Below, piece after piece: positions 1 to 26,474 of a DNA stretch of 27,080 nucleotides (position 1 is the first letter of the stretch; every line of letters begins with the position of its first letter). The stretch is from a virus, in IMG/VR virus record IMGVR_UViG_3300027712_000122, positions 1 through 27,080 of that record; one strand, written 5' to 3'. A program made the translations under genes and the position numbers. Under the pieces are notes generated by a model. That model saw only the letters and a program-made list of their open reading frames with translations, made no database searches and had not been told where the DNA came from.

Positions 1-2961
1 TTCACCCGTATCTTCTTCATCACTTGATGAAGTATCATCTCCCATTTCAGATGCTTTCTTTTCTAGTGCTTCTTCATCAATCTGTAACTTCATTTTTTCC
101 ATATCATTTTCAGACATATTAAGAATATTAGATCTGACCCAATATTCTGAATAGTATGTTCCAATATGGCTTGAGATTGTATCAAGCATTCCTATACGAG
201 ATTGTAAAATTTCAAAGTCCTTTAGTTCGGAATAGAAGTTATCCTCAATAAAGTCGATACCCATTCCTTCACGAATAGTCGGCCAATCTTCAAGAGTAAT
301 AATACCCTTTAGGATACACTGAACGCGAAGCATATCCGAGAACATCATGGAGAACTTCTTACGAAGTCGTGAAATAAACTTTTGGAATTTAACTTCTTCT
401 CGGGAAATTTCAGATGCTCTTCCAATGGAAAAATTAGAATCTGATGCAAGTCGATCAGATGGAACATTCAAAGAACGATATAACTTCTTTTGGAAGAAGA
501 GAATATCTTCGATTTCCGAAAGATTCGAATTCTTAGTAAAGATACCACAGGATAATGCAAATGTATGATGATTATGAATTAATTCATCGTGATCAATAGT
601 AAGAGTTCCAACAGGAATTGTATAATCTAAATATTCAATTTTTACAATTCTATGATTATGAACCGATTCTTTTTTTCTAAAATCTGCCCAATCTACATAA
701 CCAAATTGTTTTACACATTTTACTATTATTGTCGCTGTAAATCCGATAGAAATATTCCAATTAGGCACATTCTTATTTTGATTTAATTCAGATAATCTTA
801 ATCTGCATTCATCATTTGAATTCATTAATTCCACTACATCAGATAAAGAAACTTGATGAGAAGTTTTTCCTGTAATAAGATCAATGATATTACACAATAT
901 AAAATTATCAAATGAAAGTTTTTGATTTATAGTATGATTTTCTTTACGAATAACACCTTTAATAGGATCATTCCAAGAAATAACATTATTTATTTTTGCT
1001 CTATCTGATGCTAAAGCTTTAGCCTCATCAGACCAGCCATCACGTTGTTTTTGTCTAAAGTTAGCATTAAATATAGGATCCTTTAATTTTTCTTGTAATG
1101 ATAATGTTCCTTTATATAAACATTCTTTATAACGATCTATACGAATTTGTTTTTCTTCATCAGTTAAACTAGAATGGTATTTTTTATGTCCTTCACTTAT
1201 TTTATTACAATGATCAGTATATTCTTCATTGGAATAATCAAACCACATTTGTTTGGTACGGTTTCCAATCTCTAAACAAATTTCTTTGTATAATTCAGGA
1301 TCTTCATTCTTAATTCTTTCAAGTCTAGCTTTAGCAGCAATACATCCAAGAGCTGCTGCTTCTTTAGAAAATCCAAAATCAGCATGTAATTTTGAATGAT
1401 CATTCCAAGACATTTTACAAATATTATTAGGACTATTGTTAAACCTATTAAAATCAATATGATGATTTATTTGCTTTATCTCTTCCTCTAATGATTCATC
1501 ATATACATAATCAGATATAAATGGTTTTCCTAATTTTCCAACTAATCTATGGGTATATTTCCACTTTTTATCAGAGTTATCAAAATATTGTTCATAATCT
1601 AATTTTTTATATTCAGCAATATTTTTCTTATCACGGTATAGGGGAATCATACTAGAATTAACAGATAAATCCTCAGCAGCAACAAAACCCTGACCATATA
1701 CAGGGAATTTGTGATCAGGCGTACAAATTAATGATTCTCCATTATCAAGAGTAATTTTCATTACCTTTGCATTTGTTTGAGTTTGACCGGCCCATGATAT
1801 TAATCCAGGTTTTATTTCACCTGTAAATTCATCACATGAATATGTCCAGAGTTGTTTACCTTCTTTCATTTCTAATTCAATATCAAGAATCGAAAGATCT
1901 CTTCCATCCAATAAGGATACTTTGGTATCCATAGCCAAACACCCTCCTGGTAGTGTTGTGATTTCAGTACCTCTTCCGCCTTCACGACGAGGAAGCCAAA
2001 AATCTTCTAACATTGACATGCTCTTACGATCATCTCTAATTTCACCAGAGTTTACATCATAGACAAGTTTATTTCTATACTTTGCCATAATACCCTGAAC
2101 ATATTCTTCAGCTTTACCTTTTGGAAGGTTACCAATATCAATATAGAAAATACGACGTTCAGGCGCACGTGATACACGGTAAATTACCAATGCATCTTCC
2201 ATCATTCTAAGTTGATTAACTAACTTAACCGACTTATGAAGATATGAAATAGCAACCTTACCAGATTCATCAAGAACACCTGATGGAATATAAACAATAG
2301 CATTAGGGTCAATCCTAACACCACTCATTGTATTTGTAAAATCGTCGGAATACAAAAAGTATTCGGCTGTAATATGATTGGTCTTAATGCCTGTAACCTG
2401 ATCAATTGAAGTTGTAACTTCTTTAATCTTCTTAATCTTAAGAGGATCAATTTGAATAATACCCTTAATACCTTCTTTAGGTTTTGCTGAATCTACTTGA
2501 AGATGGAAATAGATTTTTCCATCAATATACCATCTACGGAAAATATCATATCCAGTATAGTTAAAGTCTAGGAGTTCTAGAATGGTTGAAAACTCATCGA
2601 AAATACGATCTTTAATTTTGTCTGTTAATTCAACACTGTCAAGATCTAGTTTAATAGGTGCTCCCTTGGAGTCGGAAACAATTGCTGCATTTGTAATATC
2701 TGCAATAGCATTATCACATTCGGGTTGTCCAGCAGCAGCCCGATATTTAAGGATTAGATCCTTTTCATTAACGAAAGATGTACCATCAATATCTAGGATT
2801 TGTCCATAGTATCCAGCAGCAGATGCTGCAGGCAATAACATAGAACCGTCATTTTGCGATGGTATAGCAAATGACTTAATAGTATTGTCGATTTCAATAG
2901 CACCCGAGGTGGATGCAGTCTTATCAATCTTCTTACTTATTTCAAATCCGAATAGCTTCAT
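1..2961 (-). CDS. 20: Portal protein gp20 precursor with in-frame intein (3' end cut by window)
   Basis: The portal forms the ring at the capsid vertex through which DNA is packaged and to which the neck attaches. The frame is open from the ATG at 2961 to the window edge (987 codons, no stop), so only a short acidic C-terminal tail is missing. The N-extein is 340 residues and ends in GTEITTLPGG. The C-extein resumes at SNLSEIEDILFFQKKLYRSL, which matches the T4 gp20 segment around TEVDTLPG...NMEDIRWF as I remember it. Later segments (CILKGIITLEDW, FYSELKDFEILQSRIGML) also fit gp20. Between the two lies a 471-aa intein, annotated separately. It lies next to the tube gene, in T4 order. No Shine-Dalgarno sequence is visible; the start context is CTTATATG. 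A perfect hairpin lies just upstream. Confidence 0.93.
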   Translation of the reverse strand, partial: MKLFGFEISKKIDKTASTSGAIEIDNTIKSFAIPSQNDGSMLLPAASAAGYYGQILDIDGTSFVNEKDLILKYRAAAGQPECDNAIADITNAAIVSDSKGAPIKLDLDSVELTDKIKDRIFDEFSTILELLDFNYTGYDIFRRWYIDGKIYFHLQVDSAKPKEGIKGIIQIDPLKIKKIKEVTTSIDQVTGIKTNHITAEYFLYSDDFTNTMSGVRIDPNAIVYIPSGVLDESGKVAISYLHKSVKLVNQLRMMEDALVIYRVSRAPERRIFYIDIGNLPKGKAEEYVQGIMAKYRNKLVYDVNSGEIRDDRKSMSMLEDFWLPRREGGRGTEITTLPGGCLAMDTKVSLLDGRDLSILDIELEMKEGKQLWTYSCDEFTGEIKPGLISWAGQTQTNAKVMKITLDNGESLICTPDHKFPVYGQGFVAAEDLSVNSSMIPLYRDKKNIAEYKKLDYEQYFDNSDKKWKYTHRLVGKLGKPFISDYVYDESLEEEIKQINHHIDFNRFNNSPNNICKMSWNDHSKLHADFGFSKEAAALGCIAAKARLERIKNEDPELYKEICLEIGNRTKQMWFDYSNEEYTDHCNKISEGHKKYHSSLTDEEKQIRIDRYKECLYKGTLSLQEKLKDPIFNANFRQKQRDGWSDEAKALASDRAKINNVISWNDPIKGVIRKENHTINQKLSFDNFILCNIIDLITGKTSHQVSLSDVVELMNSNDECRLRLSELNQNKNVPNWNISIGFTATIIVKCVKQFGYVDWADFRKKESVHNHRIVKIEYLDYTIPVGTLTIDHDELIHNHHTFALSCGIFTKNSNLSEIEDILFFQKKLYRSLNVPSDRLASDSNFSIGRASEISREEVKFQKFISRLRKKFSMMFSDMLRVQCILKGIITLEDWPTIREGMGIDFIEDNFYSELKDFEILQSRIGMLDTISSHIGTYYSEYWVRSNILNMSENDMEKMKLQIDEEALEKKASEMGDDTSSSDEEDTGE
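529..1941 (-). other. Contiguous intein with HNH homing endonuclease inside portal gp20
   Basis: This 471-residue in-frame insertion begins with Cys1 (CLAMDTKVSLLDG, block A). Block B contains the canonical T-P-D-H at intein residues 74-77. It ends in a block F/G region (VGTLTID...HTFALSCGIFTKN), with Asn as the last residue and Ser as +1. Residues about 159-190 (NHHIDFNRFNNSPNN...WNDHSKLH) form an HNH nuclease motif of the phage homing type. Removing it leaves a continuous portal sequence. The penultimate residue is Lys rather than the usual His. Exact borders are inferred from the splice motifs and the match to gp20. I saw no internal TATAAATA in it, unlike the two terminase-associated endonucleases. 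Confidence 0.92.
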
Positions 2962-5450: not shown

Positions 5451-6839
5451 TTAGAGTATTCCCCACTCTTCCATGTCAGCTCTTGCCCTTTCATATAACT
5501 CCATAGATGGAGTAGGCGCTGATTCATAGCCCGTCATTATACCAAACGGAAGAACATCTTCCTCCATTTCTCTAATTCTATCTGCATATAGTAATCCTTT
5601 TAAGTCAACTGAATCCATCTTACCAAATGCCTCAATTGAAATAAACCATGCAAACATAACTAGGTTCATTACCATATCATCATGATTATTTCCTGATGCA
5701 GCATAACTATCACCTTTTGGCTCGAATGATGTTAATTCTATAATAGTAGGTGCATCAAATACTTCTAATTTTCCAAGTTCAAGGAGATCCTTTAGATTAG
5801 AGCATCCAATACGTTTAACCCGTTTTGACATTGTTACACCAATACCAGATGCTTTTGCAGAAGATTGAATAAATGTATTATCATACTCATGATCATAATA
5901 TACCGAATTACACACAACCTGACCTACATCATTATTTTCAATAACAATAACTGCATCATTATATGTCTTTGCAGCACGTACAATCAACTCGGGAAATATT
6001 AGAGGTGAAATCATATTATCACGGAATGTACATACCTGTTTAAAGGTTTCACCCGTTGTATCAAATACAGAGAATGTAGAGTAATCTTGTCCTCGCCCCT
6101 TAGATACATCAACTGTCATTATATAATTATGACCTTCTTGCGGTTCAATATAATACTTAATCTCATACTGAATCTTTATAGGTTCACGAGAAGTTAATGC
6201 CAAAAGAACATCGGAACTAATTAGAGTTGCCGCGGAACCGATCCAAGCGCATTCAAATTCTTGCCTGAATTGAAGTTCTGATGTATTAGATATTGTTCTT
6301 TGTTTCCATGCTTCATCCTTACCAGGAACATCTTGCCATCTAATACGGAATGGTTTAAATTCACTAGTTCCGTTTGTAGCACCTTCCCAAATCTTATAGA
6401 ACATATTACCAACTCCATTAGGTGTTGATGTAATAATAACCTTTGTATCTTCACCTGATGTAATAACAGGGTAAGTTGCAGTGTAAAATTCATTAGCCCT
6501 ATTTACGAAGGCAAATTCGTCAAGAAATAAACAATTATGACTAATTATACCATTTGTAAAATAAGAATGTGTATCCTCAACGTTTAGAAGATCATATACC
6601 CTTTCTGTTTTATAATCAGAAATATTAAGAATTTTGATGTTTGGGTATACAATATCCCCTATTTCTAAAAATCTAGCTGGAATAAATGAAATATTATCAT
6701 TTAATAATATTTCATGATCATATGTACAATTAAGTATCTCTCTATTACTTAAAGAGATAGACAATAATTCATTTGAAATACCCTGATCTATAAATCCATC
6801 AAATGATTTAAAGCCATTTTGTGTTAATACTTCAATCAT
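5451..6839 (-). CDS. 17: Large terminase fragment 3: split-intein C-half plus Walker B and nuclease domain of gp17
   Basis: Residues 1-102 are an intein C-half ending ISHN. Residues 103-462 are the terminase C-extein, beginning CLFLDEFAFV (Walker B D107/E108), then the coupling motif ITSTPNG. The headful nuclease follows, with acidic residues in TVDVSKGRGQDYS (D244), VIVIENND (E301) and HDD (D387/D388), matching the T4 gp17 nuclease layout. I chose the ATG at 6839 because it makes a 4-bp ATGA overlap with the stop of fragment 2; an ATG at 6863 in the same frame would add eight residues (MGIKKEKK). It works only after trans-splicing to fragment 2, so it is one part of a three-part gene and not a pseudogene. 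The tail sheath gene follows. Confidence 0.93.
   Translation of the reverse strand: MIEVLTQNGFKSFDGFIDQGISNELLSISLSNREILNCTYDHEILLNDNISFIPARFLEIGDIVYPNIKILNISDYKTERVYDLLNVEDTHSYFTNGIISHNCLFLDEFAFVNRANEFYTATYPVITSGEDTKVIITSTPNGVGNMFYKIWEGATNGTSEFKPFRIRWQDVPGKDEAWKQRTISNTSELQFRQEFECAWIGSAATLISSDVLLALTSREPIKIQYEIKYYIEPQEGHNYIMTVDVSKGRGQDYSTFSVFDTTGETFKQVCTFRDNMISPLIFPELIVRAAKTYNDAVIVIENNDVGQVVCNSVYYDHEYDNTFIQSSAKASGIGVTMSKRVKRIGCSNLKDLLELGKLEVFDAPTIIELTSFEPKGDSYAASGNNHDDMVMNLVMFAWFISIEAFGKMDSVDLKGLLYADRIREMEEDVLPFGIMTGYESAPTPSMELYERARADMEEWGIL
6534..6839 (-). other. Split intein 2, C-half (AceL-TerL-like)
   Basis: 102 residues. It starts MIEVLTQNGFKSFDGF. A block-B-like NCTYDHEIL (Y-D-H) lies at about residues 37-45, so block B sits in the C-half. 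Blocks F and G end YDLLNVEDTHSYFTNGIISHN, followed by Cys+1. From memory, the AceL-TerL C-intein has the same landmarks (ILSPNGFSNFNGI near the start, YITNGVVSHN at the end) and also comes from a phage terminase. It should pair with the N-half at 7799-7888. Confidence 0.9.
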
Positions 6840-7786
6840 TTTTTTTTCTTTTTTAATACCCATCCTTCTGGTGCATCATTAGGAAAATAATAACCCTTTT
6901 GAGCATTATCATTAGGATTTATAAAATAATTTTTACCTTTATTCATTGCACATCTTCCTTCTTTTTTCCAAGCATCTGACATATTTTTTCTTGTGATATC
7001 AGATCTTTTCATTCCACGATGTTTTTCTGCAGTCTTTTTAATTTTTTCGGGATTCCTATTGATCTTATCCACATGTTCATCGGTCTTTTTTAATCCAGTT
7101 AATCCTTTGCTTACAGCTTCACAAAATTCGTTAGATCTTTTTATACCACGAAATCTATTACCAACCTGTTCTGCTAAAATAGCAACTCTATTAGGTCTAG
7201 TATCATCAAATGATTTTCTTTTCTTATAATACTCTTCTGCTGCTAATTGATCATCTATATTAACATAAAAAATTGATGGGTTATCGGGATTACCACATTC
7301 ATATATCAATTTTACTCGTGCAGCAGATTCTAATATATTTTGAAGAAAATCTATACCATTAATTGAATCTTGAAGATTTTTAAATAGTACTCCATTATAT
7401 AATATATGTTTGCCAGTATCTTTTGGGTTTCCTAAATTAGATTCTGATATTAATTTACGAGATTCAGTAGTATGCTTTTTACCATAGAACCCATTATTTT
7501 CTCCATGCAGTATACAAATGTTACCACCAATGGATAGATTATATGTATCTTCTCTTAAAGTAAAGTCGCGGTCAACAATTCTTTTTTCTTCAGACTCTGC
7601 TTCTTCTTTGGTATCAAATATTGATAATATTTCTTTTGAGAAACAATCTATTCCATATTTTTCTATTGCTCTTTTTATTAATTTACCAGATCCCATATAA
7701 CCATCATCTATATTTTTTGTAGAATGGTATCCAACATAAATTTTTCTATTAATATTATTTGTGATTTTATAAATTATGTATTTCAT
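6836..7786 (-). other. GIY-YIG homing endonuclease domain with NUMOD3-like repeats
   Basis: The part of fragment 2 from Met242 to the stop. It opens MKYIIYKITNN and has YVG about 13 residues after IIY, then GSGKLIKRAIEKYG and a Glu-rich EEAESEEKRI helix that can supply the catalytic Glu. DNA-binding NUMOD3-like segments follow (GKKHTTESRK, GIKRSNE, GLKKTDEHVDK, GMKRSD), then YFPNDAPEGWVLKKKKK. Met242 is preceded by GAGAAAG, so it could also be translated on its own. Confidence 0.85.
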
Positions 7787-8509
7787 TTCTTTCTCGATGA
7801 GTTCACTATTATTTATATAATCTTCTATTTTTTTATAGTAAATATCATTGTTTTTTGATATACATATTTTAGCATCACCAGAAATACAGTTTAAACTTTT
7901 TCCACGAATACTCGATGATGAAGTTGCTGCAGCAATAATTTCTGAATTATTTGAAAATTTAATAGAACCTTTATTAAGGACTCTACAGCCTGGCTGTAAC
8001 CAAAATGGAAGATTCTCCAACATTAATGTCAGGCGAGATAACATCTCACGAGAAATGGCACCTTTATTGGCCAGAATACCAACCTGTTTATCAGCATTAA
8101 AACATATATACCATAATAACCAAGCCACAGACGTCACACTATTATGGCTAAGAATATCATTTGTATAATATCTATTATTATCGGAATCAACCGATAAATC
8201 AAACATATTAGATTGTTTTCCATTTTTCTTTACAGACTCTACTAATACAGATCCGTTAATTGTTTGGATTTTAGTATTATTACAATCCTTTGCAAATACT
8301 TCAGATAAATCTTCATTAAAAAGAATATGAGTATCAGCACATATTATAGATTTACCATCTTCTAATTTTACTTCATATTCATCATAAGGAATAGTGAGAT
8401 TAATATGAGTAAGATCCTCCCAACCGGTATCAGTTAAAACTTCATAGTCATCTATGGGCAGAGTATCTATAAATTTTCTCTCAACTGTATCAGATAATAA
8501 AGGATTCAT
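6836..8509 (-). CDS. 17: Large terminase fragment 2: intein-1 C-half, middle extein, intein-2 N-half, GIY-YIG endonuclease
   Basis: 557 aa in four parts. Residues 1-123 are an intein C-half ending DILSHN. Residues 124-207 are the terminase ATPase middle, from SVTSVAWLLWY (rest of Walker A) through GILANKGAISREMLSR to IRGKSLN; T4 gp17 has similar GILAHKG and VRGNSF segments. Residues 208 to about 237 are an intein N-half (CISGDAKICIS). From about 242 there is a GIY-YIG endonuclease (IIY...YVG) with NUMOD3-like repeats (GENNGFYGKKHTTESRK) and a Lys-rich end. The ATG overlaps the upstream endonuclease stop by 4 bp, and its own stop overlaps the next ATG by 4 bp. Two trans-splicing events would keep only the 84-residue middle segment, releasing the rest as intein and nuclease. 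Confidence 0.92.
   Translation of the reverse strand: MNPLLSDTVERKFIDTLPIDDYEVLTDTGWEDLTHINLTIPYDEYEVKLEDGKSIICADTHILFNEDLSEVFAKDCNNTKIQTINGSVLVESVKKNGKQSNMFDLSVDSDNNRYYTNDILSHNSVTSVAWLLWYICFNADKQVGILANKGAISREMLSRLTLMLENLPFWLQPGCRVLNKGSIKFSNNSEIIAAATSSSSIRGKSLNCISGDAKICISKNNDIYYKKIEDYINNSELIEKEMKYIIYKITNNINRKIYVGYHSTKNIDDGYMGSGKLIKRAIEKYGIDCFSKEILSIFDTKEEAESEEKRIVDRDFTLREDTYNLSIGGNICILHGENNGFYGKKHTTESRKLISESNLGNPKDTGKHILYNGVLFKNLQDSINGIDFLQNILESAARVKLIYECGNPDNPSIFYVNIDDQLAAEEYYKKRKSFDDTRPNRVAILAEQVGNRFRGIKRSNEFCEAVSKGLTGLKKTDEHVDKINRNPEKIKKTAEKHRGMKRSDITRKNMSDAWKKEGRCAMNKGKNYFINPNDNAQKGYYFPNDAPEGWVLKKKKK
7799..7888 (-). other. Split intein 2, N-half (about 30 aa, block A only)
   Basis: Begins at Cys208 of fragment 2 (CISGDAKICISKNNDIYYKKIEDYINN). 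It holds only the block A strand-turn-strand and an IEDY helix start, like the 25-aa AceL-TerL N-intein I remember (CVYGDTMV...IEDLY). The downstream border with the nuclease is approximate. Confidence 0.85.
7810..7817 (-). promoter_or_regulatory. Late promoter motif inside intein-2 N-half coding sequence
   Basis: Exact TATAAATA on the minus strand encoding part of the YINNSE segment. It ends 23 nt before ATG 7786 (Met242), with a GAGAAAG ribosome-site-like sequence between. Could drive separate late expression of the GIY-YIG domain, as T4 does for I-TevI. Confidence 0.5.
8141..8509 (-). other. Split intein 1, C-half (123 aa)
   Basis: Starts MNPLLSDTVERKF, then YEVLTDTGWEDL, then block B with IICADTHILF (D-T-H). 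Blocks F and G read NMFDLSVDSDNNRYYTNDILSHN, followed by Ser+1 of the terminase middle. The VLTDTGW strand matches VLTQNGF of intein 2, so both inteins are split at the same place, between blocks A and B. Confidence 0.9.
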
Positions 8510-9576
8510 AATATTTGATTATTTAATACATCAATTGAAAAAGCTTCTGTTGTAGAGAATCCATTATAATTAATATTAATTCTGTATTCTTTGTATTTAT
8601 TCAAGATTTTTTGTTCGGCTTTGAAAGCATCATAAAAAGTCATAGTATCATTGATAGAAATTACTTCATATTTCAGATTGTGTTTTCTAGTAGAACCAAA
8701 TCGTTTTGATACGCAATCATGGGAAGTAATACCAACTTTCCAAAATTCAATATTATTTTCAATATTATAGAATCTTATATAATATAATAAACTTGGTATA
8801 AGTTTTACTCTAGGATCACTATTAAATAACTGATTCATTCTTCCCGTTGATTTACCTTGATTAATTCTTTCAATTTCTTCAATTGGCTTAGAATTTAATG
8901 TTGTTTGCCATTTTTCTTGTCGCTCTTGCCATTTTTGTTTACCGGCTTCTTCACCATACTTCTCAATGCATTTTTCAAGAGAAAATGTTATTTGACGATT
9001 TGTTATTTCTTTTTTGGCTTCTTCATCTGAGCAGCCACGAGAAGTCCAATAGATTAAAGTTGTATCATTGTTTCCATTTTCTCTATTAGATGTACTACTT
9101 TTATTACAAACACCTTTAATAGATTCTATTATTTCTTCATCTGTCTTATCCTGATATTTTACAAATTTTGGAGAGAATGGCGATAATCTTCCTCCATGTT
9201 GATATGCTGGGTTTTTATCTCCCTTAATCTTTTCTGATAATTTATTTTTTATACTATCCGAAACAAGTTCACCACCATAAACTCTCTTATATTCTTCACC
9301 AGATAACCCATGCGCCATATTAACATGTTGTACTATTATGTTTCTTTTATATAATTTGCATACTTGGCACTCAACTTCGCCTTCCGTATGTTCTCTGAAT
9401 AATTCAGCAAATATTGCAGATACCTTTCTTCCAGTTGTTTTATGTTTATTATTTGGGAAAACTAAATCATGTACTTCTAATATTCTATCAATATTTTCTA
9501 CATATAATGGGTTGTGCCGTCGTTCACGTGGTTTACTAGATGATATTTTCTGGCAAATTTCTTTTAGTTCGTTCAT
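8506..9576 (-). CDS. Free-standing homing endonuclease (GIY-YIG-like) between terminase fragments 1 and 2
   Basis: 356 aa. It probably cuts intein-free terminase genes and so spreads split intein 1. A C-x2-C...H-x4-H zinc-finger-like motif (C70, C73, H84, H89) is followed by GLSGEEYKRVYG, like MucR-type fingers. Next comes a DKNPAYQHGGRLSPFSPKF segment of the kind seen in phage homing nucleases. The C-terminal part (LYYIRF...FWKVGIT...RFG...AEQKIL...TEAF) fits a divergent GIY-YIG fold. It overlaps the end of fragment 1 by 41 bp and the start of fragment 2 by 4 bp. Unlike most neighbours it has a clear AGGAG six nucleotides before its ATG, and a perfect late promoter motif upstream. The exact nuclease family is less certain than the role. 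Confidence 0.8.
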   Translation of the reverse strand: MNELKEICQKISSSKPRERRHNPLYVENIDRILEVHDLVFPNNKHKTTGRKVSAIFAELFREHTEGEVECQVCKLYKRNIIVQHVNMAHGLSGEEYKRVYGGELVSDSIKNKLSEKIKGDKNPAYQHGGRLSPFSPKFVKYQDKTDEEIIESIKGVCNKSSTSNRENGNNDTTLIYWTSRGCSDEEAKKEITNRQITFSLEKCIEKYGEEAGKQKWQERQEKWQTTLNSKPIEEIERINQGKSTGRMNQLFNSDPRVKLIPSLLYYIRFYNIENNIEFWKVGITSHDCVSKRFGSTRKHNLKYEVISINDTMTFYDAFKAEQKILNKYKEYRININYNGFSTTEAFSIDVLNNQIL

Positions 9577-9931
9577 ATAAATCTCCTACTGTTATTTTTT
9601 CAATTAAACCAGTCGTCTTATTGCGAATGGTTACAATAGTATTTATATGTTGACACTTGCCAGATTGGCGCGGAGCTAATACCACATTAAACTTATTATC
9701 AGTAATGTGTTTAATATACTTTTCTTGATATCCTCGTAATGAAAATAATTCAAGACCTCTATCTAGATGAATTATCTTACAATAATTGCATATAAAATAT
9801 GCAGCATCATCCATACATTTTACGTATTCAGTAATCTGCTCTTTTGTAAAATCTATTTTTACTCCATCCTTCTTAACATTCGGGTTACCTAAATATCCGT
9901 TCTCTTTAATCTTCTGGTTATCAAATATCAT
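9536..9931 (-). CDS. 17: Large terminase fragment 1: gp17 N-terminus to Walker A plus split-intein N-half
   Basis: 131 aa. Residues 1-92 are the N-extein: FTKEQITEYVKCMDDAAYFICNYCKII, then LRGYQEKYIKHI (the adenine-binding Q-motif region) and VVLAPRQSGK, the first half of Walker A. Cys93 starts a 39-residue intein N-half. Joined to fragment 2 the motif becomes APRQSGK-SVTSVA, a complete P-loop. The ATG at 9931 overlaps the small terminase stop by 4 bp (ATGA), as expected for translationally coupled packaging genes. The N-extein starts later than T4 gp17, so the assembled enzyme would be about 536 aa against 610 in T4. Alone the fragment cannot bind ATP. Confidence 0.93.
   Translation of the reverse strand: MIFDNQKIKENGYLGNPNVKKDGVKIDFTKEQITEYVKCMDDAAYFICNYCKIIHLDRGLELFSLRGYQEKYIKHITDNKFNVVLAPRQSGKCQHINTIVTIRNKTTGLIEKITVGDLYERTKRNLPENII
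9583..9587 (-). promoter_or_regulatory. Strong Shine-Dalgarno of the free-standing endonuclease
   Basis: AGGAG with 6-nt spacing to ATG 9576, inside the intein-1 N-half coding region. Clear Shine-Dalgarno sequences are rare in this window, which supports this start and suggests separate origin of the gene. Confidence 0.8.
9640..9647 (-). promoter_or_regulatory. Late promoter motif inside intein-1 N-half coding sequence
   Basis: TATAAATACTATTG on the minus strand, very close to the T4 late promoter consensus, encoding the I-N-T-I residues of the intein N-half. It lies 63 nt upstream of the endonuclease ATG at 9576, giving a leader of about 57 nt that contains AGGAG. Confidence 0.65.
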
Positions 9932-13383: not shown

Positions 13384-14538
13384 TTAATTTGTTATTACAG
13401 TCCAGCCTAAACCACCACTTAGTACGGATGCTTGCAGATTTGCCAATGCAGCAGCACTAGCCGCCGATGGTGCAGCATTAGTTCCCCCAGATAAAGTAAG
13501 AACTCCGTACGAATTTCCATTTGCATTAAGATGAATTATGATATTATCAACTGCAGTTTCTGTTAATGCATTGATATAACAATTCAAGTAAATTAATGTA
13601 GTATTATTAGATATATCAAGAGTTGTAAAGTCTGAGTTTGCAATGATTAAATGACTTACAGAATTAGGAAACGGAACCACCAATCCGGTCTCATTTAAAT
13701 TTATACAATCTTGAAGACCAATAAAGTCTAAAGAATCACATCCAGTAAAGTCAATAGATGTAATAGGAGTTCCATATGCGTGAAGCTGACTAAGATTAGA
13801 ACAACCAAATAGATTAATTGAAGCTAGTGTATTGGTAGGATAATCTATATATGTGTCATAACCACAATAAAGATTAGTTAAGGAAGTACATCCTGATACA
13901 TCCAATGATGTTAGTTTATTGTTGCCGACCCATAGTTGATAAATATTAGTATGATCCTTTACCTTAACATCAGTATAGTAATTCTGACCACACGGTGCAA
14001 TTGTTACCAAAGGATTTAATGTAAGATCAAGAGTACCTTCTATACGGTTGACATAAGTGCCAAGTGTTGTCAGATTAGGTGATCCTGAAGTATCTAGGGC
14101 AGTGAGATTATTTGTATATACACTTAATGTATCAAGTGATGGGCAATTATCAATACTTAGCACCTTTATCGCATTAGTTTCACACTCTACACTGATAAGA
14201 GATGGACAATTATCAAGGTTTAAATCTACTATAAAATTATTGTAACAAGTTACAGTACCAAGAAGAGGATATCCGCTTAGATTTACCATACCTGGTAAGT
14301 AATAATCATGATGACTAAAATCAGTACGAGTACTTTTAAGAGTATCATATGCAGCAATAGCATCCTCGGTACCACCAGCATAAATAATATCAAATCCTAA
14401 CGGAACATTGGCAGCAATAGGTCCAAAGACATTGGGAGTCTTGAATCCTTGAATCGCTTTTGCAATCTGCTTCTTCTGTTGCTCGTTGGGTTTTGTGCCT
14501 CCAGCTTTTGGTTTGCTTCCTAGATCTATATTACTCAT
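13384..14538 (-). CDS. Leucine-rich-repeat adhesin-like protein 1
   Basis: 384 aa. The N-terminus (MSNIDLGSKPKAGG...EQQKKQIAKAI) resembles that of the other LRR proteins and the S74 fibre. The middle has irregular LRRs of about 21 residues (LDVSGCTSLTNLYCGY, LDISNNTTLIYLNCYINALT). The C-terminus (AVDNIIIHLNANG...LTLSGGTNAAPS...LGWTVITN) is shared with the other LRR proteins. Repeats are much more diverged than in the 15366-16586 gene. There is no signal peptide, so it is more likely a virion part than a secreted protein. Probably a receptor-binding fibre tip; this is inference from location and fold. It starts 5 nt after the sulfotransferase stop with context ATATATG. Confidence 0.85.
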   Translation of the reverse strand: MSNIDLGSKPKAGGTKPNEQQKKQIAKAIQGFKTPNVFGPIAANVPLGFDIIYAGGTEDAIAAYDTLKSTRTDFSHHDYYLPGMVNLSGYPLLGTVTCYNNFIVDLNLDNCPSLISVECETNAIKVLSIDNCPSLDTLSVYTNNLTALDTSGSPNLTTLGTYVNRIEGTLDLTLNPLVTIAPCGQNYYTDVKVKDHTNIYQLWVGNNKLTSLDVSGCTSLTNLYCGYDTYIDYPTNTLASINLFGCSNLSQLHAYGTPITSIDFTGCDSLDFIGLQDCINLNETGLVVPFPNSVSHLIIANSDFTTLDISNNTTLIYLNCYINALTETAVDNIIIHLNANGNSYGVLTLSGGTNAAPSAASAAALANLQASVLSGGLGWTVITN

Positions 14539-14543
14539 ATATG

Positions 14544-15341
14544 TTATAGGTCATTGACCCAGCTAAATTTTTGGTTAATTGCTTCTGATAGTTGTTTTCC
14601 TAGCACTTCATTCCAGTCTGGTTTTAGAGGTGCTATTGTAGAACGAATTGTATGATCTCCATAGGGCCACCATTGACCATCCCATTCGGAAGTATATTGT
14701 TCAACATTTCCTGGATTATAGGTAAAAGCTTCTTCACCAAGATAAGTATGAACGGCATCCATTTCCTTCTGAGGATTAGATGTAAGTTTTTCTGCATGAA
14801 CAAAATGAACCTTATCCTTAAAGCGTAATGCCGTCTCTGATAGACGTTCTATGGCAATACCGACCTTTGGAGATGCCAACCATGCCTGTACTCTGCGTTC
14901 AATTGTAGTGAACTGAGTGGCAGGATTTTCCTCGGCATTAAAGTATGCCGGATGAGCCCGCCGCATCTTCTCCATACTGGAAAGCACCCCACGAATATCT
15001 CGCACAGGAACTAGAACTTTTGCATCGGGAAACAGCTGAAAAACTAGATCTAGATAACCATTCCAACTGCGCCCTTTATCAAAGACAATAGGACGATTAG
15101 TTGCCGAGTTGAATGCATTTTGAATGCCACCGCGTGCCCAATCAAGAAACATATTCTCAGCATCTTGGGTTTTCATGGAGCGAAATTCACCACCATCCGA
15201 AAAGTTTTTACGTGCTGGATAAATCAAATCAACAAGACCAGAGGATGCAGTAGAATGAAATCTAGGATTCTGTGCAAGAAGATTACAAAGAAGAGTCGAG
15301 CAAGAACGAGGTGGGCCAGTAACAAAATGAATAGTTTTCAT
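14544..15341 (-). CDS. PAPS-dependent sulfotransferase
   Basis: 265 aa. It would transfer sulfate from PAPS to a hydroxyl or amine acceptor. The 5'-phosphosulfate loop is FVTGPPRSCSTLLCN (residues 6-20), and the 3'-phosphate site is VLVPVRDIRGVLSSM (about 109-123) with Arg and Ser in the expected places. A Cys in the loop (PRSCST) is common in bacterial and phage members. Base composition is clearly richer in G+C (about half in rows I counted) than the flanking LRR genes (near 20-35%), suggesting recent acquisition. Acceptor unknown; the position among adhesins suggests a virion or host surface glycan. Sulfotransferase genes are known in some marine T4-like phages. Confidence 0.87.
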   Translation of the reverse strand: MKTIHFVTGPPRSCSTLLCNLLAQNPRFHSTASSGLVDLIYPARKNFSDGGEFRSMKTQDAENMFLDWARGGIQNAFNSATNRPIVFDKGRSWNGYLDLVFQLFPDAKVLVPVRDIRGVLSSMEKMRRAHPAYFNAEENPATQFTTIERRVQAWLASPKVGIAIERLSETALRFKDKVHFVHAEKLTSNPQKEMDAVHTYLGEEAFTYNPGNVEQYTSEWDGQWWPYGDHTIRSTIAPLKPDWNEVLGKQLSEAINQKFSWVNDL

Positions 15342-15365: not shown

Positions 15366-16586
15366 TTAGTTTGTTACGATAAGCCACCCTAGAACATTTT
15401 GAAGATTAGCCAATGCGGCAGATACAGTAGGATCTGATAATGTAGGAGCTGCATTGCCAGTTCCATGTAAGATAAGGGCTCCATTAACTACTCCATGATC
15501 ATTAACATCTTTAATAATTTTATCAACTGCAAGAGCTGTTAATGAATTATAACCACAATTTAATATTGATAATGAAGTATTTGTAGATACATCAAGAGCT
15601 GTTAATGCATTATAATAACAATTTAATATTGATAATGAAGTATTTGTAGATACATCAAGAGATGTTAATGAATTATAACCACAATTTAATGTTGATAATG
15701 AAGTATTTGTAGATACATCAAGAGCTGTTAATGAATTATTGAAACAATATAATGTTGATAATGAAGTATTTGTAGATACATCAAGAGATGTTAATGAATT
15801 ATTGTTACACCTTAATATTGATAATGAAGTATTTGTAGATACATCAAGAGCTGTTAATGAATTATAATAACAATATAATGTTGATAATGAAGTATTTGTA
15901 GATACATCAAGAGCTGTTAATGAATTATTGTTACACCTTAATATTGATAATGAAGTATTTGTAGATACATCAAGAGTTGTTAATGCATTATAATAACAAG
16001 CCAACGTTGATAATGAAGTATTTGTAGATACATCAAGAGCTGTTAATGAATTATTGAAACAATATAATGTTGATAATGAAGTATTTGTAGATACATCAAG
16101 AGCTGTTAATGAATTATAACCACAATTTAATATTGATAATGAAGTATTTGTAGATACATCAAGAGCTGTTAATGAATTATAACCACAATTTAATATTGAT
16201 AATGAAGTATTTGTAGATACATCAAGAGATGTTAATGCATTATAATAACAATTTAATATTGATAATGAAGTACACCCAGATACATCAAGAGATGTTAATG
16301 CATTATAATAACAATTTAATATTGATAATGAAGTACACCCAGATACATCAATTCTGCCAAATGCGGACTTATAATAAAGACCACTTAGATCAGTCACTGC
16401 ATCCATATTTTTAGCAAAGGCAAATTGTCCCGGAATTATATTGAATAATGCTGGATCAAAGTGATCAGATATATCGCCAATACCTATAGGATTCTCACAT
16501 ATATTGGTTGCTCTACGAATATTTTTTTTCTGAGAAGTAGTCGGTGCACTTCCTACTGGGGCATTTCCAAGATCTATGTTGCTCAT
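15366..16586 (-). CDS. Leucine-rich-repeat adhesin-like protein 2, with 13 near-identical 21-aa repeats
   Basis: 406 aa. The N-terminal MSNIDLGNAPVGSAPTTSQKKNIRRA anchor-like segment is followed by 13 tandem 21-residue LRRs and the shared C-terminal module ending LGWLIVTN. The repeat consensus is LDVSTNTSLS-(I/T)-L-x-C-x-x-N-(A/S)-LT-x. Differences are concentrated at the x positions of the LxxLxCxxN beta strand, the concave surface of an LRR solenoid. Near-identity at DNA level implies recent expansion or conversion. No signal peptide or membrane anchor. Probably a receptor-binding tip whose specificity can change by repeat exchange (inferred). It lies between the sulfotransferase and LRR protein 3. 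Confidence 0.87.
   Translation of the reverse strand: MSNIDLGNAPVGSAPTTSQKKNIRRATNICENPIGIGDISDHFDPALFNIIPGQFAFAKNMDAVTDLSGLYYKSAFGRIDVSGCTSLSILNCYYNALTSLDVSGCTSLSILNCYYNALTSLDVSTNTSLSILNCGYNSLTALDVSTNTSLSILNCGYNSLTALDVSTNTSLSTLYCFNNSLTALDVSTNTSLSTLACYYNALTTLDVSTNTSLSILRCNNNSLTALDVSTNTSLSTLYCYYNSLTALDVSTNTSLSILRCNNNSLTSLDVSTNTSLSTLYCFNNSLTALDVSTNTSLSTLNCGYNSLTSLDVSTNTSLSILNCYYNALTALDVSTNTSLSILNCGYNSLTALAVDKIIKDVNDHGVVNGALILHGTGNAAPTLSDPTVSAALANLQNVLGWLIVTN
15534..16352 (-). repeat. Tandem array of 13 x 63-bp LRR repeats
   Basis: Exactly 819 bp, an uninterrupted in-frame array. Seven distinct repeat cores are reused: CYYNALT after SILN three times, CGYNSLT after SILN three times, YCFNN twice, RCNNN twice, and ACYYN, YCYYN and STLNCGYN once each. 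Confidence 0.95.
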
Positions 16587-16596
16587 ATATAAAAGA

Positions 16597-18000
16597 TTAT
16601 GTGTTTACAGTGACATTCCAACCAAGAACATCTATTAGATTTGTTAATGCAGCAGATACATCAGGATCCGATAAAGTAGGAGTAGCATTGCCAGCTCCAG
16701 ATAAGTTAAGACGTGCAGGACGTGCAGGTTGACTAGCTACTCCATGGCCGCTAAGATCTTTAATAATATTATCAACCGCAGTATTTGTTAATGCATTATT
16801 GGTGCAATCTAATGATATTAAGGCAGTATTTGTAGATACATTAAGAGTTGTTATTACATTATCAGTGCAATATAGGTGTAGTAAGTTGGTATTATTAGTT
16901 GTATCAAGAGTTTCTAATGTATTATTAGAACAATTTATCATTAATAGTGCTGTATTTGTAGATACATTAAGAGTTGTCAATGTACAAGTATTACAATATA
17001 ATGATGTCAAGGCGGTATTTGCAGATATATCAAATGTATATGTAACTAATGGATTATGAGAACAATATAATGTTGATAATGAAGTACAAGTAGATACATC
17101 AATAAATGTCAAAGCAGAAGAATTACAATATAATGATGTTAATGAAGTACAACCAAGAACATTAAGTGTATCCAATAAAGGATATCCAGATGCATCAAGT
17201 GATGTTAAGTCAGTACATCCCATAACATTTAAATAAGATAATGAACTACAATAATTAGAATTTATGGATGTTAATGAAGTACAATATGATGCATCAATAT
17301 ATGATAATAAAGAAAGACCATATACATCGAGGAATGTTAATGGATTATTATAACAAAGTAATGTAGTTAATGAAGCACAACCTGATACATTAAGAGTTGT
17401 TAATGAATTATTATAACAAGCTAGTGAATTTAATGCAGTATTAGCGGATACATCAAGAGTTGTTAATTCATTACCATTACAATATAATGATGTTAATGAA
17501 GTATTTGCAGATACATCAAGAGCTGTTAATACATTACCAAAACAGACTAAATGAGTTAATGCTGTATTGGTGGATACATCAAGAGTTGTTAATGCATTAT
17601 AATAACAAGCCAACGTTGATAATGAAGTACATCCAGATATATCAAGAGTTGTTAATGAATTACTGTTACAATATAATGTTGATAATGAAGTATTTGCAGC
17701 TACATCAAGAGCTGTTAATGTATTATATGCAATACTACAACTTTGAAGATTTGATAATGAATGAAGATCAAAAATACAATTACCTGCACTATTCGAATCT
17801 ACTACAGTAACAGCCGACGAATCATCTGCGTATAAAAATGCACCACTTCTATATGGTGTCGATCCAACAATGGTAATATTACCGGGAGTTTGCGCAATAG
17901 CAATAGGTGACGGAACTACACCAAGCGACCTCTGGAACTGAGCACTTTGAGATGCTGTTGGTGTTTTTATTGGAACTGTACTATTGAGATTAATGCTCAT
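16597..18000 (-). CDS. Leucine-rich-repeat adhesin-like protein 3
   Basis: 467 aa. The N-terminus (MSINLNSTVPIKTPTASQSAQFQRSLG) is a diverged form of the shared anchor segment. Residues about 81-405 hold some 15 LRR units of about 21 residues (LDVSANTSLTSLYCNGNELTT and variants, some with GCTSL or ANTAL). The C-terminus ends in the shared module (NTAVDNIIKDLSGHGV...LSGAGNATPTLSDPDVSAALTNL...LGWNVTVNT). The insert QPARPAR in this cap looks like a short local duplication. One repeat is identical at DNA level with a repeat in LRR protein 2. Likely a fibre or receptor-binding protein, from context. Confidence 0.85.
   Translation of the reverse strand: MSINLNSTVPIKTPTASQSAQFQRSLGVVPSPIAIAQTPGNITIVGSTPYRSGAFLYADDSSAVTVVDSNSAGNCIFDLHSLSNLQSCSIAYNTLTALDVAANTSLSTLYCNSNSLTTLDISGCTSLSTLACYYNALTTLDVSTNTALTHLVCFGNVLTALDVSANTSLTSLYCNGNELTTLDVSANTALNSLACYNNSLTTLNVSGCASLTTLLCYNNPLTFLDVYGLSLLSYIDASYCTSLTSINSNYCSSLSYLNVMGCTDLTSLDASGYPLLDTLNVLGCTSLTSLYCNSSALTFIDVSTCTSLSTLYCSHNPLVTYTFDISANTALTSLYCNTCTLTTLNVSTNTALLMINCSNNTLETLDTTNNTNLLHLYCTDNVITTLNVSTNTALISLDCTNNALTNTAVDNIIKDLSGHGVASQPARPARLNLSGAGNATPTLSDPDVSAALTNLIDVLGWNVTVNT
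16786..17760 (-). repeat. LRR repeat region of protein 3
   Basis: About 15 units near 63 bp, more diverged than the array at 15534-16352. The block at 17573-17629 is identical over 57 bp to 15964-16020. Confidence 0.85.
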
Positions 18001-19440: not shown

Positions 19441-19593
19441 TTATGCAATATTTATGGTATAGTTATTTGAAGTACCGATAATAGCTATATAAGCTTTGCT
19501 ATATGTATAAGCACCAAGAGTAACATCTATAATTGCCTTTTCAAGGATAATATAAACAAATAATGAATTATTTAAGAGATCCCCAAAAATTAC
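19441..19593 (-). other. Open frame without a start codon after the Ig-domain gene
   Basis: A 50-codon open frame overlapping the end of the Ig gene by 26 nt, in its +1 frame, and filling most of the 144-nt gap. It has no ATG, GTG or TTG. The peptide (IILEKAIIDVTLGAYTY, SKAYIAIIGTSNN) looks protein-like. It may be a frameshifted extension, a decayed gene end or chance. Confidence 0.2.
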
Positions 19594-20281
19594 TTAATGA
19601 TATTCGCCCAGAAGTAGGAACACTTACATTTGAAGGTGAATTAACTACCAAACTACCTCGTCTATAAAATGATGATAAATGAATATTAGATTTTGTTACA
19701 TTCGGAACAATAAATGTATCGGCTATATTACCTAATGATATTATTCCTGATGAGGGTAGATGAATCTGTAATGAAGTTGATGCAATAGCTGTTTGGCCAC
19801 TCGTATCTGTTACTTTTACCCAATAGAGTGTATCACCAGTTAACGTTGGAGTAGTAAAACTTGGTGAGTTAGTACCAACTGGAGATGTAATTACATTAAT
19901 ATCCCCTTGATACCATTGATATGTAAATGAGTTATTACCGCCCGCTGCAGTAACACTAAGTGTAACAGTAGAGCCCGTAGTAATAATAATAATCGGTAAT
20001 AATCCGGTGACTGTTAAAAGAGGAATTACTGTTACTGTAGCTGTATCAGAATTTACTGAACCGAAACCCGTAGCCAGAACCCAATAGTTAGTAGTAGTAT
20101 ATAAAATGGGAGTGGTAAAACTAGAACTCGTCTTAAAGCCCTGTTTAGATACAATATTAGATGTGTCACCAGAAGTACCTTGATACCATTTCCAGGTGGA
20201 ATTTAATAAAGTTTGAGCACTAAGAGTTGTATTATTACCGCCAATTATAGTAACTGATGCAGGCTGGAGAGTTAGTGACAT
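19568..20281 (-). CDS. Tail protein with two Ig-like domains
   Basis: 237 aa. Two Ig-like beta domains. The first (about 1-87) has WKWYQGTSGDTS, FTTPILYTTTNYWVLA and DTATVTV. The second (about 90-174) has VTLSVTAAGG, YQWYQGDINV, SFTTPTLTGDTLYWVKVTD. The last 60 residues (SGIISLGNIADTF... RISLSNFWGSLK) match the short ISLSNF(Y/W)G ending common in phage fibre and adhesin proteins. Ig-like domains on phage virions often bind carbohydrate. It begins exactly at the last base of the S74 fibre stop (TAATG, 1-bp overlap), indicating coupling. Probably a decoration or fibre accessory protein. Confidence 0.85.
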   Translation of the reverse strand: MSLTLQPASVTIIGGNNTTLSAQTLLNSTWKWYQGTSGDTSNIVSKQGFKTSSSFTTPILYTTTNYWVLATGFGSVNSDTATVTVIPLLTVTGLLPIIIITTGSTVTLSVTAAGGNNSFTYQWYQGDINVITSPVGTNSPSFTTPTLTGDTLYWVKVTDTSGQTAIASTSLQIHLPSSGIISLGNIADTFIVPNVTKSNIHLSSFYRRGSLVVNSPSNVSVPTSGRISLSNFWGSLK

Positions 20282-21755: not shown

Positions 21756-21941
21756 ATGGACAATGAACGTATCTACATCAAATCGGCCTTTCAGGAACTT
21801 CTAGCATCAATGAATATTGGAATTGTTGATTATATTACCATTTATAAAACTGAAGGTGACAAAGTATTTTTCTCTGCAAATAAAGCAAAATTACATCTAA
21901 CAAAAGCTGAATTAGCTGAAGTTATACTTACCACCCATTAA
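21756..21941 (+). CDS. Small protein of unknown function, the only plus-strand gene
   Basis: 61 aa: MDNERIYIKSAFQELLASMNIGIVDYITIYKTEGDKVFFSANKAKLHLTKAELAEVILTTH. It looks like an alpha/beta mini-domain, with no membrane segment or known motif. It fills the only sizeable opening between two minus-strand genes. Its stop overlaps the glycosyltransferase stop by 4 bp in the palindrome TTAA, so the genes converge with no spacer. A late-like motif precedes the ATG at the spacing used by minus-strand genes. Composition is ordinary for a protein, unlike the low-complexity shadow frames elsewhere. Function unknown. Confidence 0.65.
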   Translation: MDNERIYIKSAFQELLASMNIGIVDYITIYKTEGDKVFFSANKAKLHLTKAELAEVILTTH

Positions 21942-22720
21942 TCATTGAATACATAATTGAATGGTAATTGCGTTTGCGCATATACCTTTCTACAAAAAAC
22001 ATTACCGTTAGCTCTCATATCATCAATTGTATTAGTATCAATTGATTCATATGTATAAGGAGTTTCTCTACATCCTAATAGTTGTTGTGTTATAGGTAAT
22101 GTTTCCTTAAACCATTCAACGCTACAGTTATTTGAAAACTGAAACGGTTGTTCATATGTATTAGCAATGAGATGAAAGTAAAATTCATCGGTATAGGTAT
22201 TACGTGCCTTAACAAAAAACCTTTCATTTTCACGGAATACTCTCACAAAAAGTTCAACATCGGGCCTCGTACATACAAACCATTGATGGACCTTACATGC
22301 ATTTCTGAGACGAAATTTACCACTATTAAATAATAGGCCATATTTAAATCTGACTTCTATGCTAGCACCCGAGTTAGGAGGAAATTTAGTAAATGATAGA
22401 ATCGGATAGTTCTCTTTTATTTTTTTACACATAGTTTCCATATTATATAATGGAGCATGTGAATCTGATATAAGAATAAAATGTGTATTATCTTCATCAA
22501 GAAGAGCTTCCTTCATTAGATTAATAGTTGCTGTTACCAATGAGTGATGACCCCATGCAGTATTAATTCTGTTAGGAATACAGAATTGTCTAAATATATT
22601 ACAATCAATCTTATTGTGGATATACAGATTATAGGAATCTGAATCAGTTCCAAAGAAATCCTGCATTATAGGATGAACAAAATCTCCATATGTCAAAGCT
22701 AAAAATGCAACTTTTCCCAT
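21938..22720 (-). CDS. Core-2/I-branching-like glycosyltransferase
   Basis: 260 aa. It resembles the Core-2/I-branching (GT14-type) family: KVAFLALTYGDFVHP at the N-terminus, YNLYIHNK, INTAWGHHSLVTATINLMKEAL, then HFILISDSHAPLYNMETM. The WG(H)xSLV...LL...AL...N..FILLSDSxxPLY series is the family signature. Later CKVHQWFVCTRPDVELF fits the acceptor region. It probably adds a sugar to a surface polymer or to a virion protein; the substrate is unknown. It is preceded by the 660-aa adhesin-like gene and followed by the plus-strand gene. The start context is ATATATGG with no Shine-Dalgarno sequence. Confidence 0.8.
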   Translation of the reverse strand: MGKVAFLALTYGDFVHPIMQDFFGTDSDSYNLYIHNKIDCNIFRQFCIPNRINTAWGHHSLVTATINLMKEALLDEDNTHFILISDSHAPLYNMETMCKKIKENYPILSFTKFPPNSGASIEVRFKYGLLFNSGKFRLRNACKVHQWFVCTRPDVELFVRVFRENERFFVKARNTYTDEFYFHLIANTYEQPFQFSNNCSVEWFKETLPITQQLLGCRETPYTYESIDTNTIDDMRANGNVFCRKVYAQTQLPFNYVFND

Positions 22721-24929: not shown

Positions 24930-26474
24930 TTATCCTACAATGGTCCACCCCTTATTGGTTGCTATAAGTCTATCTCCTGCTGTAAGATCAGCAACCCCAT
25001 GATTACCTGTGATTGTTATTGTCTGCCCCCCAATTGTGGCTAGCCCATTGAATATATCTACAAGAGCAGTTCGTGCTAATTTACAAGAGGCAAATGATAT
25101 TGTAGCTTTGGTTCCAGATAGAGGAGCCGATGCCAGAGAACGGCACGTAAGAAATGCATTGGAAGTTGTGGTAAAATCAGTAACAGCAGAAACATTTAAA
25201 GCTGGTACTGATTGCAAAGAGGTACAGTTTGCGAATATCTGATATGCTAATGTGACAGCAATAGTATTCCATAAAGGAAATGTCAGCAATGAACTACAGT
25301 TAAAAAACATTCCAGACATATTAGTAACTAAATGTGTATCAAATAATGGGACTGTTTGTAATGAATTACAATTTGTAAACATTTGATTCATATTAGTAAC
25401 CAATGAAGTATTAAATAGAGGAACTGATTGTAATGCAGTACATGTATAAAACATTTGATTCATAATAGTGCAAGCCCGTGTATCAAATAGGGGAACGGTT
25501 CTTAATGATTGGCATGATTGAAACATACTAGTCATAATAGGACATAATATAGTATTAAATAATGGCACAGATTGTAATGAATAACAACCATAAAACATAT
25601 TGCCCATTGAAACATTAACTTTGGATGTGTCAAATAATGGAACTGTTACTAATTCATAACAACTGTTAAACATACCAGCCATATTAGTAACAGATCCTGT
25701 ATTGAAGAGTGGGACCGATTGTAATGAATAACACATATTAAACATACTATTCATATTAGTAACAGATCCTGTATTGAAAAGTGGGACCGATTGTAATGAA
25801 TAGCAACTCTGAAACATACTATTCATTGCCGTAGCAGATGCTGTATTAAAAAGGTTAATGTACTGCAATGATATACAGTTCAGAAACATATTATTCATTG
25901 CTGTAATAGTCCCCGTTGTTCCTATATTAACTCTCTCTAAAAATGCCTGAGTTATATTAGCTCCCCCAATAGTAATACCAGTTATACTAGTGCCATTTAT
26001 ATTAATATCCAACCAATTTACATTAGAAGCGGCAATCAAACCAGTTCTTGTATTAATGATATTGAAGTTAATAACTGTAAGATTTGCTGTATCTGGTGTT
26101 ATTGTTACAATACATTGTCTATGACCAGCATTCGTTAATGTTGTTGAAGACTTTGCTGTATCAGTTATATTGGCATAAACATATTGATGATTTGCTGTTG
26201 TATTGCTTGTTATACCTGTAACAATCGTGCCGTCCCCCCAGTCAACCGTATAGGTTCCGGCTGATACAGTGGCACGAAGAGCAACATAATTAGAATCATC
26301 ATTTGATACACCATAAAGACCCACAACTTTTTGATCTGATGATGATAGAGTTGGTAGAGCCATCCATAATGGTGAACGAACCCAAGGGGAATTAGTGGGA
26401 ATGGGTCTTCCATAAGCTGGAGAAATACCAACTTTTCCTAAAGGAGTACTTCCAAGATATAATGCTGTAGCCAT
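24930..26474 (-). CDS. PKD-like domain plus BspA/DUF285-type repeat adhesin
   Basis: 514 aa. The N-terminus (MATALYLGSTPLGKVG) is a short anchor-like segment. Residues about 66-105 hold a PKD-like element (VDWGDGTIVTGI...HQYVY). Residues about 192-432 are ten repeats of about 24 residues, with the pattern (M)xxMFxxCxSLQxVPLFxTxxVT, the DUF285/BspA-type repeat of bacterial surface proteins. The C-terminus (DIFNGLATIGGQTITITGNHGVADLTAGDRLIATNKGWTIVG) resembles the cap of the LRR proteins. Such repeats form solenoids that bind surface ligands. Likely a receptor-binding part of the tail. The gene is between the cut-off fibre and the 66-aa gene. Confidence 0.85.
   Translation of the reverse strand: MATALYLGSTPLGKVGISPAYGRPIPTNSPWVRSPLWMALPTLSSSDQKVVGLYGVSNDDSNYVALRATVSAGTYTVDWGDGTIVTGITSNTTANHQYVYANITDTAKSSTTLTNAGHRQCIVTITPDTANLTVINFNIINTRTGLIAASNVNWLDININGTSITGITIGGANITQAFLERVNIGTTGTITAMNNMFLNCISLQYINLFNTASATAMNSMFQSCYSLQSVPLFNTGSVTNMNSMFNMCYSLQSVPLFNTGSVTNMAGMFNSCYELVTVPLFDTSKVNVSMGNMFYGCYSLQSVPLFNTILCPIMTSMFQSCQSLRTVPLFDTRACTIMNQMFYTCTALQSVPLFNTSLVTNMNQMFTNCNSLQTVPLFDTHLVTNMSGMFFNCSSLLTFPLWNTIAVTLAYQIFANCTSLQSVPALNVSAVTDFTTTSNAFLTCRSLASAPLSGTKATISFASCKLARTALVDIFNGLATIGGQTITITGNHGVADLTAGDRLIATNKGWTIVG
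25179..25901 (-). repeat. Ten DUF285-type repeats of about 72 bp
   Basis: In-frame repeats; the two copies around 25685-25815 are nearly identical in DNA (PLFNTGSVTNM-type units), others are diverged. One unit carries an extra residue. Confidence 0.85.

Follow-up and report, generated by a model that had tools for sequence, protein, structure and literature searches.

Concerted evolution of leucine-rich repeat units in three paralogous genes of a T4-like phage late module

Three neighbouring genes in a viral genome fragment, here called A, B, and C, encode leucine-rich repeat (LRR) proteins. Comparison of related contigs shows that whole 63-bp units are added to and lost from their arrays, that recombination inside a unit produces hybrids, and that repeats and C-terminal caps move from one paralogue to another. 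Repeat turnover is well supported, as is concerted evolution through exchange both inside each gene and among A, B, and C. The exchange between genes is the strongest evidence. Our best explanation, which we hold at a probability of about 0.6, is that A, B, and C are fibre-like adhesins of a T4-like phage and that recombination of units and caps, by ordinary homologous recombination, remodels their binding surface. An initial annotation of this DNA had described a hypervariable adhesin in gene B and had missed paralogues A and C and the exchange between genes. That description is partly supported and sharpened here, from a lone hypervariable adhesin to a three-gene family in concerted evolution. 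How phage receptor-binding surfaces change rapidly without a retroelement is an open, practical question. The three genes offer a natural system for it: the anchors are fixed, the LRR units recombine freely, and unit number and order can be counted with long reads and linked to host range.

Three LRR genes in a late structural module

The window, meaning the whole stretch of DNA analysed, is a 27,080-base virus record and part of a T4-like phage late module on the minus strand. Around the LRR genes the module contains the portal, tail tube, tail sheath, large and small terminase subunits, sheath stabiliser, and neck proteins, and then fibre-type genes. The tail sheath has best annotated matches that are only about 37-42% identical. 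Gene B lies within this late structural module, as expected of a tail fibre or virion adhesin of a T4-like phage, and a fibre with an S74 chaperone is among the genes surrounding A, B, and C. A scan for relatives with a neck protein returned 55 loci. Only two close relatives turned up, each a short metagenomic contig: one syntenic, L011, in which the neck protein is 89% identical, and one conspecific, L001. C, B, a sulfotransferase gene, and A occur in the same order in L011 as in the window, where they are placed as follows.

13384-14538, minus strand: gene A, a 384-aa paralogue with about 4-6 degenerate LRRs and the same cap type; its L011 orthologue has 11 regular units
14544-15341, minus strand: sulfotransferase-family gene (PF13469) between A and B; in the same place in L011, with 97% aa identity
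15366-16586, minus strand: gene B, an ORF for a 406-aa LRR protein of the IRREKO/InlJ class (Pfam LRR_4, E = 5e-23)
16597-18000, minus strand: gene C, a 467-aa paralogue with about 12 diverged LRRs and the same cap type; its L011 orthologue has 3

The three paralogues have a common layout, in which similar N-terminal segments are followed by LRRs and a C-terminal cap. The sulfotransferase gene is far more conserved in L011 than the LRR genes that flank it. Sulfation of tyrosines on the LRR face by its product was considered and left as speculation; comparison of the protein with a solved sulfotransferase showed no sequence similarity, and its match to NoeE is weak. A core-2/I-branching glycosyltransferase family gene (21938-22720, minus strand) also lies inside the fibre module. 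Gene B itself divides into three parts.

16329-16586, minus strand: N-terminal segment, aa 1-86, with a putative virion-anchor motif (MSNIDLGxxPxG..P..Q) and a lead-in; mostly low-confidence in the model
15531-16328, minus strand: repeat array of thirteen 63-bp units, of which the final one continues into the cap (TRF, codon tables)
15366-15530, minus strand: C-terminal cap, aa 353-406 (AVDKII..LGWLIVTN), of a type common to A and C; a helix/strand cap in the model

The repeat belongs to the IRREKO class, whose 21-residue consensus LxxLxCxxNxLxxLDLxx(N/L/x)xx (PMC2946307) is fitted by 13 units. InlJ (3bz5) is the best match of B in both sequence (phmmer E = 1.3e-53) and fold (Z 38.2, rmsd 2.0 over 337 residues, 37% identity). 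The AlphaFold model has a pLDDT of about 97 over the repeats, bearing out the LRR solenoid of the initial annotation, and the model of L011 paralogue A is the same solenoid. DSSP on these two models places a strand at positions 3-5 of each unit. In the second half, many units have no more than a bridge of one residue near position 15, and some have short strands. Strands in both half-units, on the concave and convex sides, are predicted for the IRREKO class, and B agrees with this, its second strand being weak. The models support placing positions 3 and 5 on an exposed parallel beta-strand and positions 7 and 8 just after it. In internalin-type LRRs, the parallel beta-sheet forms the concave, ligand-presenting face.

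B shares with InlJ and the IRREKO class the 21-residue LxxLxCxxNxLxxLDVxxN repeat with its cysteine ladder, but has its own N-terminal segment and cap and is homogenised at the DNA level across three genes. It scores 187 bits against a cut-off of 1700 for NCBIfam internalin_J and therefore is not internalin J proper; fold and repeat alone are in common. Similarly, the best tblastn matches in phage records, which were unannotated Listeria records and an internalin-like gene, were dismissed as resemblance of repeat class only. The 2010 description of IRREKO contained a single virus example, an entomopoxvirus (PMC2946307).

The N-terminal motif of B also occurs on other proteins. One is an LRR-free ORF in L011 (4952-5605, E = 2.4e-5) and another is a BspA-type LRR_5 protein in the contig L112, located upstream of gp25-/gp6-like baseplate genes; neither is a proven fibre. 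A scan with the N-terminus for orthologues of B returned only L011 and this LRR_5 protein, and the match of the motif to the S74 fibre of the window was not significant (E = 3.7). The cap type of A, B, and C is also found in contig L098, at the end of an LRR protein that has collagen-like GPTGPTG repeats and a different N-terminus. The cap alone had no match among annotated phages. The place in the late module and the presence of the motif on other proteins point to probable virion attachment of A, B, and C; the adhesin role is putative, and specificity may change. The class does not consist of virion adhesins alone: one IRREKO LRR gene, in a Vibrio phage, sits next to a helicase in an early region.

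Turnover and exchange of repeat units

In B, TRF detects a 63-bp unit repeated 12.8 times at 15530-16335 (score 1262, 90% matches, zero indels), a tandem repeat far beyond chance. The thirteen near-invariant 21-aa repeats of the initial annotation are confirmed; its interval for them, 15534-16352, covers the array but not the whole gene. Its reuse of seven cores was equally accurate, as 7 distinct sequences are found among the 13 LxxLxCxxN cores. Codons were compared across the 12 units whose LDV segment is complete. Codons 1, 2, 6, 9, 11, 12, 14-17, 20, and 21 are DNA-identical in 12/12 units, silent sites included, and codon 4 has a single silent change. Unit 6 deviates by ACG/TTG, and codons 18/19 deviate in the first unit only (GGG TGT). 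The variable codons are 3, 5, 7, 8, 10, and 13. Variation had been thought limited to LxxLxCxxN; the most variable positions are indeed 3, 5, 7, and 8, but positions 3 (I/T), 10 (S/A), and 13 (A/S/T) vary too. Inside B, biallelic site pairs within units show all four combinations, and therefore recombination has occurred within units.

The longest exact internal repeat of the B array is 97 bp. Its order should therefore be resolvable with ordinary 150-base reads, and we rejected large block duplication as the origin of the unit order. In this respect B is unlike L105, which with L078 and L099 is one of three further viral contigs carrying DNA-homogeneous IRREKO arrays, and in which a recurring three-unit block gives the signature of block duplication.

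The contig L001 is 99.94% identical to the window over 8,707 bp, with two mismatches outside the array (within about 8.6 kb outside the hybrid unit) and three in the last unit of the array. Its array ends in a hybrid unit, and the unit order up to there agrees with the window. A self-join of B losing one or two units rebuilds 854 bp of L001 without mismatch, the difference lying at a metagenomic contig end. The breakpoint falls inside a 9-bp stretch that lies between variable codons 10 and 13.

16166-16300, minus strand: region of the L001 deletion allele, joining 16166-16174 with 16229-16237 (one unit lost) or with 16292-16300 (two units lost)

L011 is more distant. N-termini of the window and L011 agree at 65% (A), 81% (B, first 80 residues), and 67% (C) of amino acids, against 26-45% between paralogues. 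The unit counts from window to L011 change from 4 to 11 in A, from 13 to 7 in B, and from 12 to 3 in C. The initial annotation had staked its shuffling on differences in repeat number or order among relatives, and such differences are present in both L011 and L001. The array scaffold reads LDVSTNTSLS in the window versus LDVTGCTALN in L011, each largely common to the paralogues of its phage. For 37 of 40 repeats the nearest repeat from a foreign gene is in the same phage, which none of 2000 label shuffles matched, although the repeats are non-independent and this weakens the test. The caps follow the same pattern, being 81-91% DNA-identical between paralogues in L011 versus 71-80% to the window orthologues. 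One phage's repeats are thus closer to each other than to their orthologues, while the N-termini remain orthologous, because units and caps swap between paralogues.

Exact tracts are also shared between paralogues. In the window, B and C share one.

15964-16020, minus strand: 57-bp exact tract in unit 6 of B, LSTLACYYNALTTLDV, common to gene C
17573-17629, minus strand: partner of this tract in gene C

Pairs in L011 share tracts of 70, 61, and 54 bp. In 200 synonymous-codon resamplings the corresponding maxima, starting with B/C, were 38, 32, 32, and 35 bp. The paralogue tracts exceed what codon resampling explains.

Variable positions and alternative explanations

The variable positions of B coincide with those of 22 unrelated IRREKO arrays from viral contigs (rho 0.72, P = 0.0002), and we rejected the idea that the positional pattern is special to B. 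At face positions 3, 5, 7, and 8, pN is 0.36 and pS 0.30. Because per-position pN shows no clear excess over pS, positive selection at the face is not claimed. The agreement with unrelated arrays, and a pN that is not clearly higher than pS, make the focus on one face a largely generic feature, the normal signature of the fold. Taken alone, it is no evidence that new specificities are being selected. The variable sites had been assigned to the binding face, and in the models positions 3, 5, 7, and 8 do fall on or just after the beta-strand, but unrelated arrays vary at these positions too, and the further step from face variation to changing specificity is not supported. Core positions of B have a pN of 0.000. 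Position 8 is Tyr in 19/34 units (56%) versus 11/142 (8%) in the unrelated arrays, where units are not independent. The Tyr-rich face is an unusual feature of these arrays, and the non-independence of repeats weakens its statistic.

Neutral turnover is the serious rival to recombining adhesins. Tandem DNA repeats would grow, shrink, and become uniform through slippage and recombination, and positions left free by the fold would vary with no selected effect on binding. The agreement with unrelated arrays and the pN and pS values at the face are what such a process would leave, and zero silent variation at most scaffold codons shows recent homogenisation. Three paralogues with conserved anchors nevertheless all stay open in both phages, B strictly preserves its hydrophobic core and Cys ladder, and the face is unusually Tyr-rich, though each of these is compatible with neutrality at the face. 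We give neutral turnover a modest but real probability.

The other alternatives invoke dedicated machinery or error. DGRs in phage tail proteins focus variation at the ligand-facing codons of an adhesin, and one elsewhere in the genome might hypermutate the LRR cores as variable repeats; the variable codons are mostly NNT/NNC, loosely resembling DGR targets, and the window is a fragment, leaving room for a cassette outside. However, reverse transcriptase (PF00078) is absent from the window, as the initial annotation said, and from the records of 20 relatives, incomplete but including ones of 174 and 190 kb. The variation is by block recombination, with variants that are few linked multi-base blocks reused across units instead of independent changes, and a GC content of 33% already favours T-ending codons. 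We regard a DGR as very improbable. Lamprey VLRs are LRR solenoids assembled from variable units, and dedicated shuffling of this or a phase-variation type, with a silent LRR cassette store and a recombinase, would agree with the small core set reused in different order and with the donor-like tract common to C and B. It is nonetheless highly unlikely, as the visible donors are complete ORFs (A, B, and C) within 27 kb, neither a silent cassette array nor a recombinase was identified in the window, and plain homology accounts for the observed junctions. The repeat shuffling of the initial annotation is therefore retained as recombination of units and not as a VLR-like system, of which a cassette store, somatic assembly, and a dedicated enzyme were not seen. 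Finally, short-read assembly could have scrambled or collapsed the array, given that the contigs are metagenomic and that L001 ends inside it. The 97-bp limit on exact internal repeats, the agreement of L001, a separate contig, in array order up to the hybrid end unit, and L011 arrays whose protein and DNA differences are much too large for assembly error leave this only a slim chance.

Under the preferred reading of A, B, and C as recombining adhesins, the conserved N-terminal segment probably fixes each protein to the virion, with the InlJ/IRREKO-type solenoid in the middle and the cap at the end. T4-like phages recombine actively. Ordinary homologous recombination among near-identical 63-bp units, through slippage, unequal crossing-over, and gene conversion, would be the driver and would explain the junctions seen. 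The binding surface would be remodelled with the scaffold left intact and without dedicated mutation machinery. The proteins may bind a structure on the host surface, for which the many Tyr and Phe residues of the face would make a glycan a candidate, and changes in the arrays might shift host range. More tentatively, the three genes could act as a standing repertoire generator, in which every gene both encodes an adhesin that is expressed and supplies units to the other two, and frequent recombination yields many binding variants per phage population. We think this doubtful at present; if true, it would be a parallel to the diversification of repeat receptors that works by homology alone and requires no retroelement.

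Related systems and other features of the module

The closest described dynamic is that of the hnwd/HET WD-repeat genes of Podospora anserina, which differ in unit number, exchange homogenised repeats inside and across paralogous loci, and concentrate their variation at a few surface positions (PMC2873952). Likewise, in A, B, and C the unit number differs between relatives (4/13/12 vs 11/7/3, and the L001 deletion) and units are exchanged within and between loci, as seen in the 37/40 repeats, the tracts, and the incompatible site pairs. The hnwd genes, in contrast, encode fungal WD40 propellers in STAND receptors, have laboratory mutants, and have demonstrated diversifying selection, whereas A, B, and C are phage LRRs with the face values given above. 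Fibritin (wac) of T4-like phages is also a fibre-type gene whose C-terminal modules were exchanged, in a process described as ancient and now ended (PMC3797505). Exchange in A, B, and C is recent and on the scale of single repeats, and the comparison with fibritin concerns the kind of gene and of exchange. Accelerated divergence of repeats within proteins has been described as a general phenomenon (PMC5120217). In the literature searched, we found nothing on phage LRR fibres under concerted evolution. The present case would extend concerted evolution of recognition repeats, described in fungi and plants, to genes of a phage tail module.

Several other genes of the window are also unusual. The large terminase subunit (5451-9931, minus strand) is in three pieces, at 9536-9931, 6836-8509, and 5451-6863, and is apparently a doubly fractured gene. 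By eye, the ends of the pieces resemble split-intein halves; a free-standing endonuclease-like ORF lies at 8506-9576 and a homing-endonuclease match lies within the middle piece. In the portal gene (1-2961, minus strand) the coding sequence is broken by a large insertion that resembles an intein and has matches to HNH endonucleases. An Ig-like domain protein (19568-20281, minus strand) has weak matches to a tail protein and to Hoc-like head decoration. A second repeat type occurs among the fibre genes, in a DUF285 gene with 72-bp repeats (24930-26474, minus strand). Its counterpart in another contig (L013:923-3757) has about 15 near-identical units, which suggests similar repeat turnover in a different fold.
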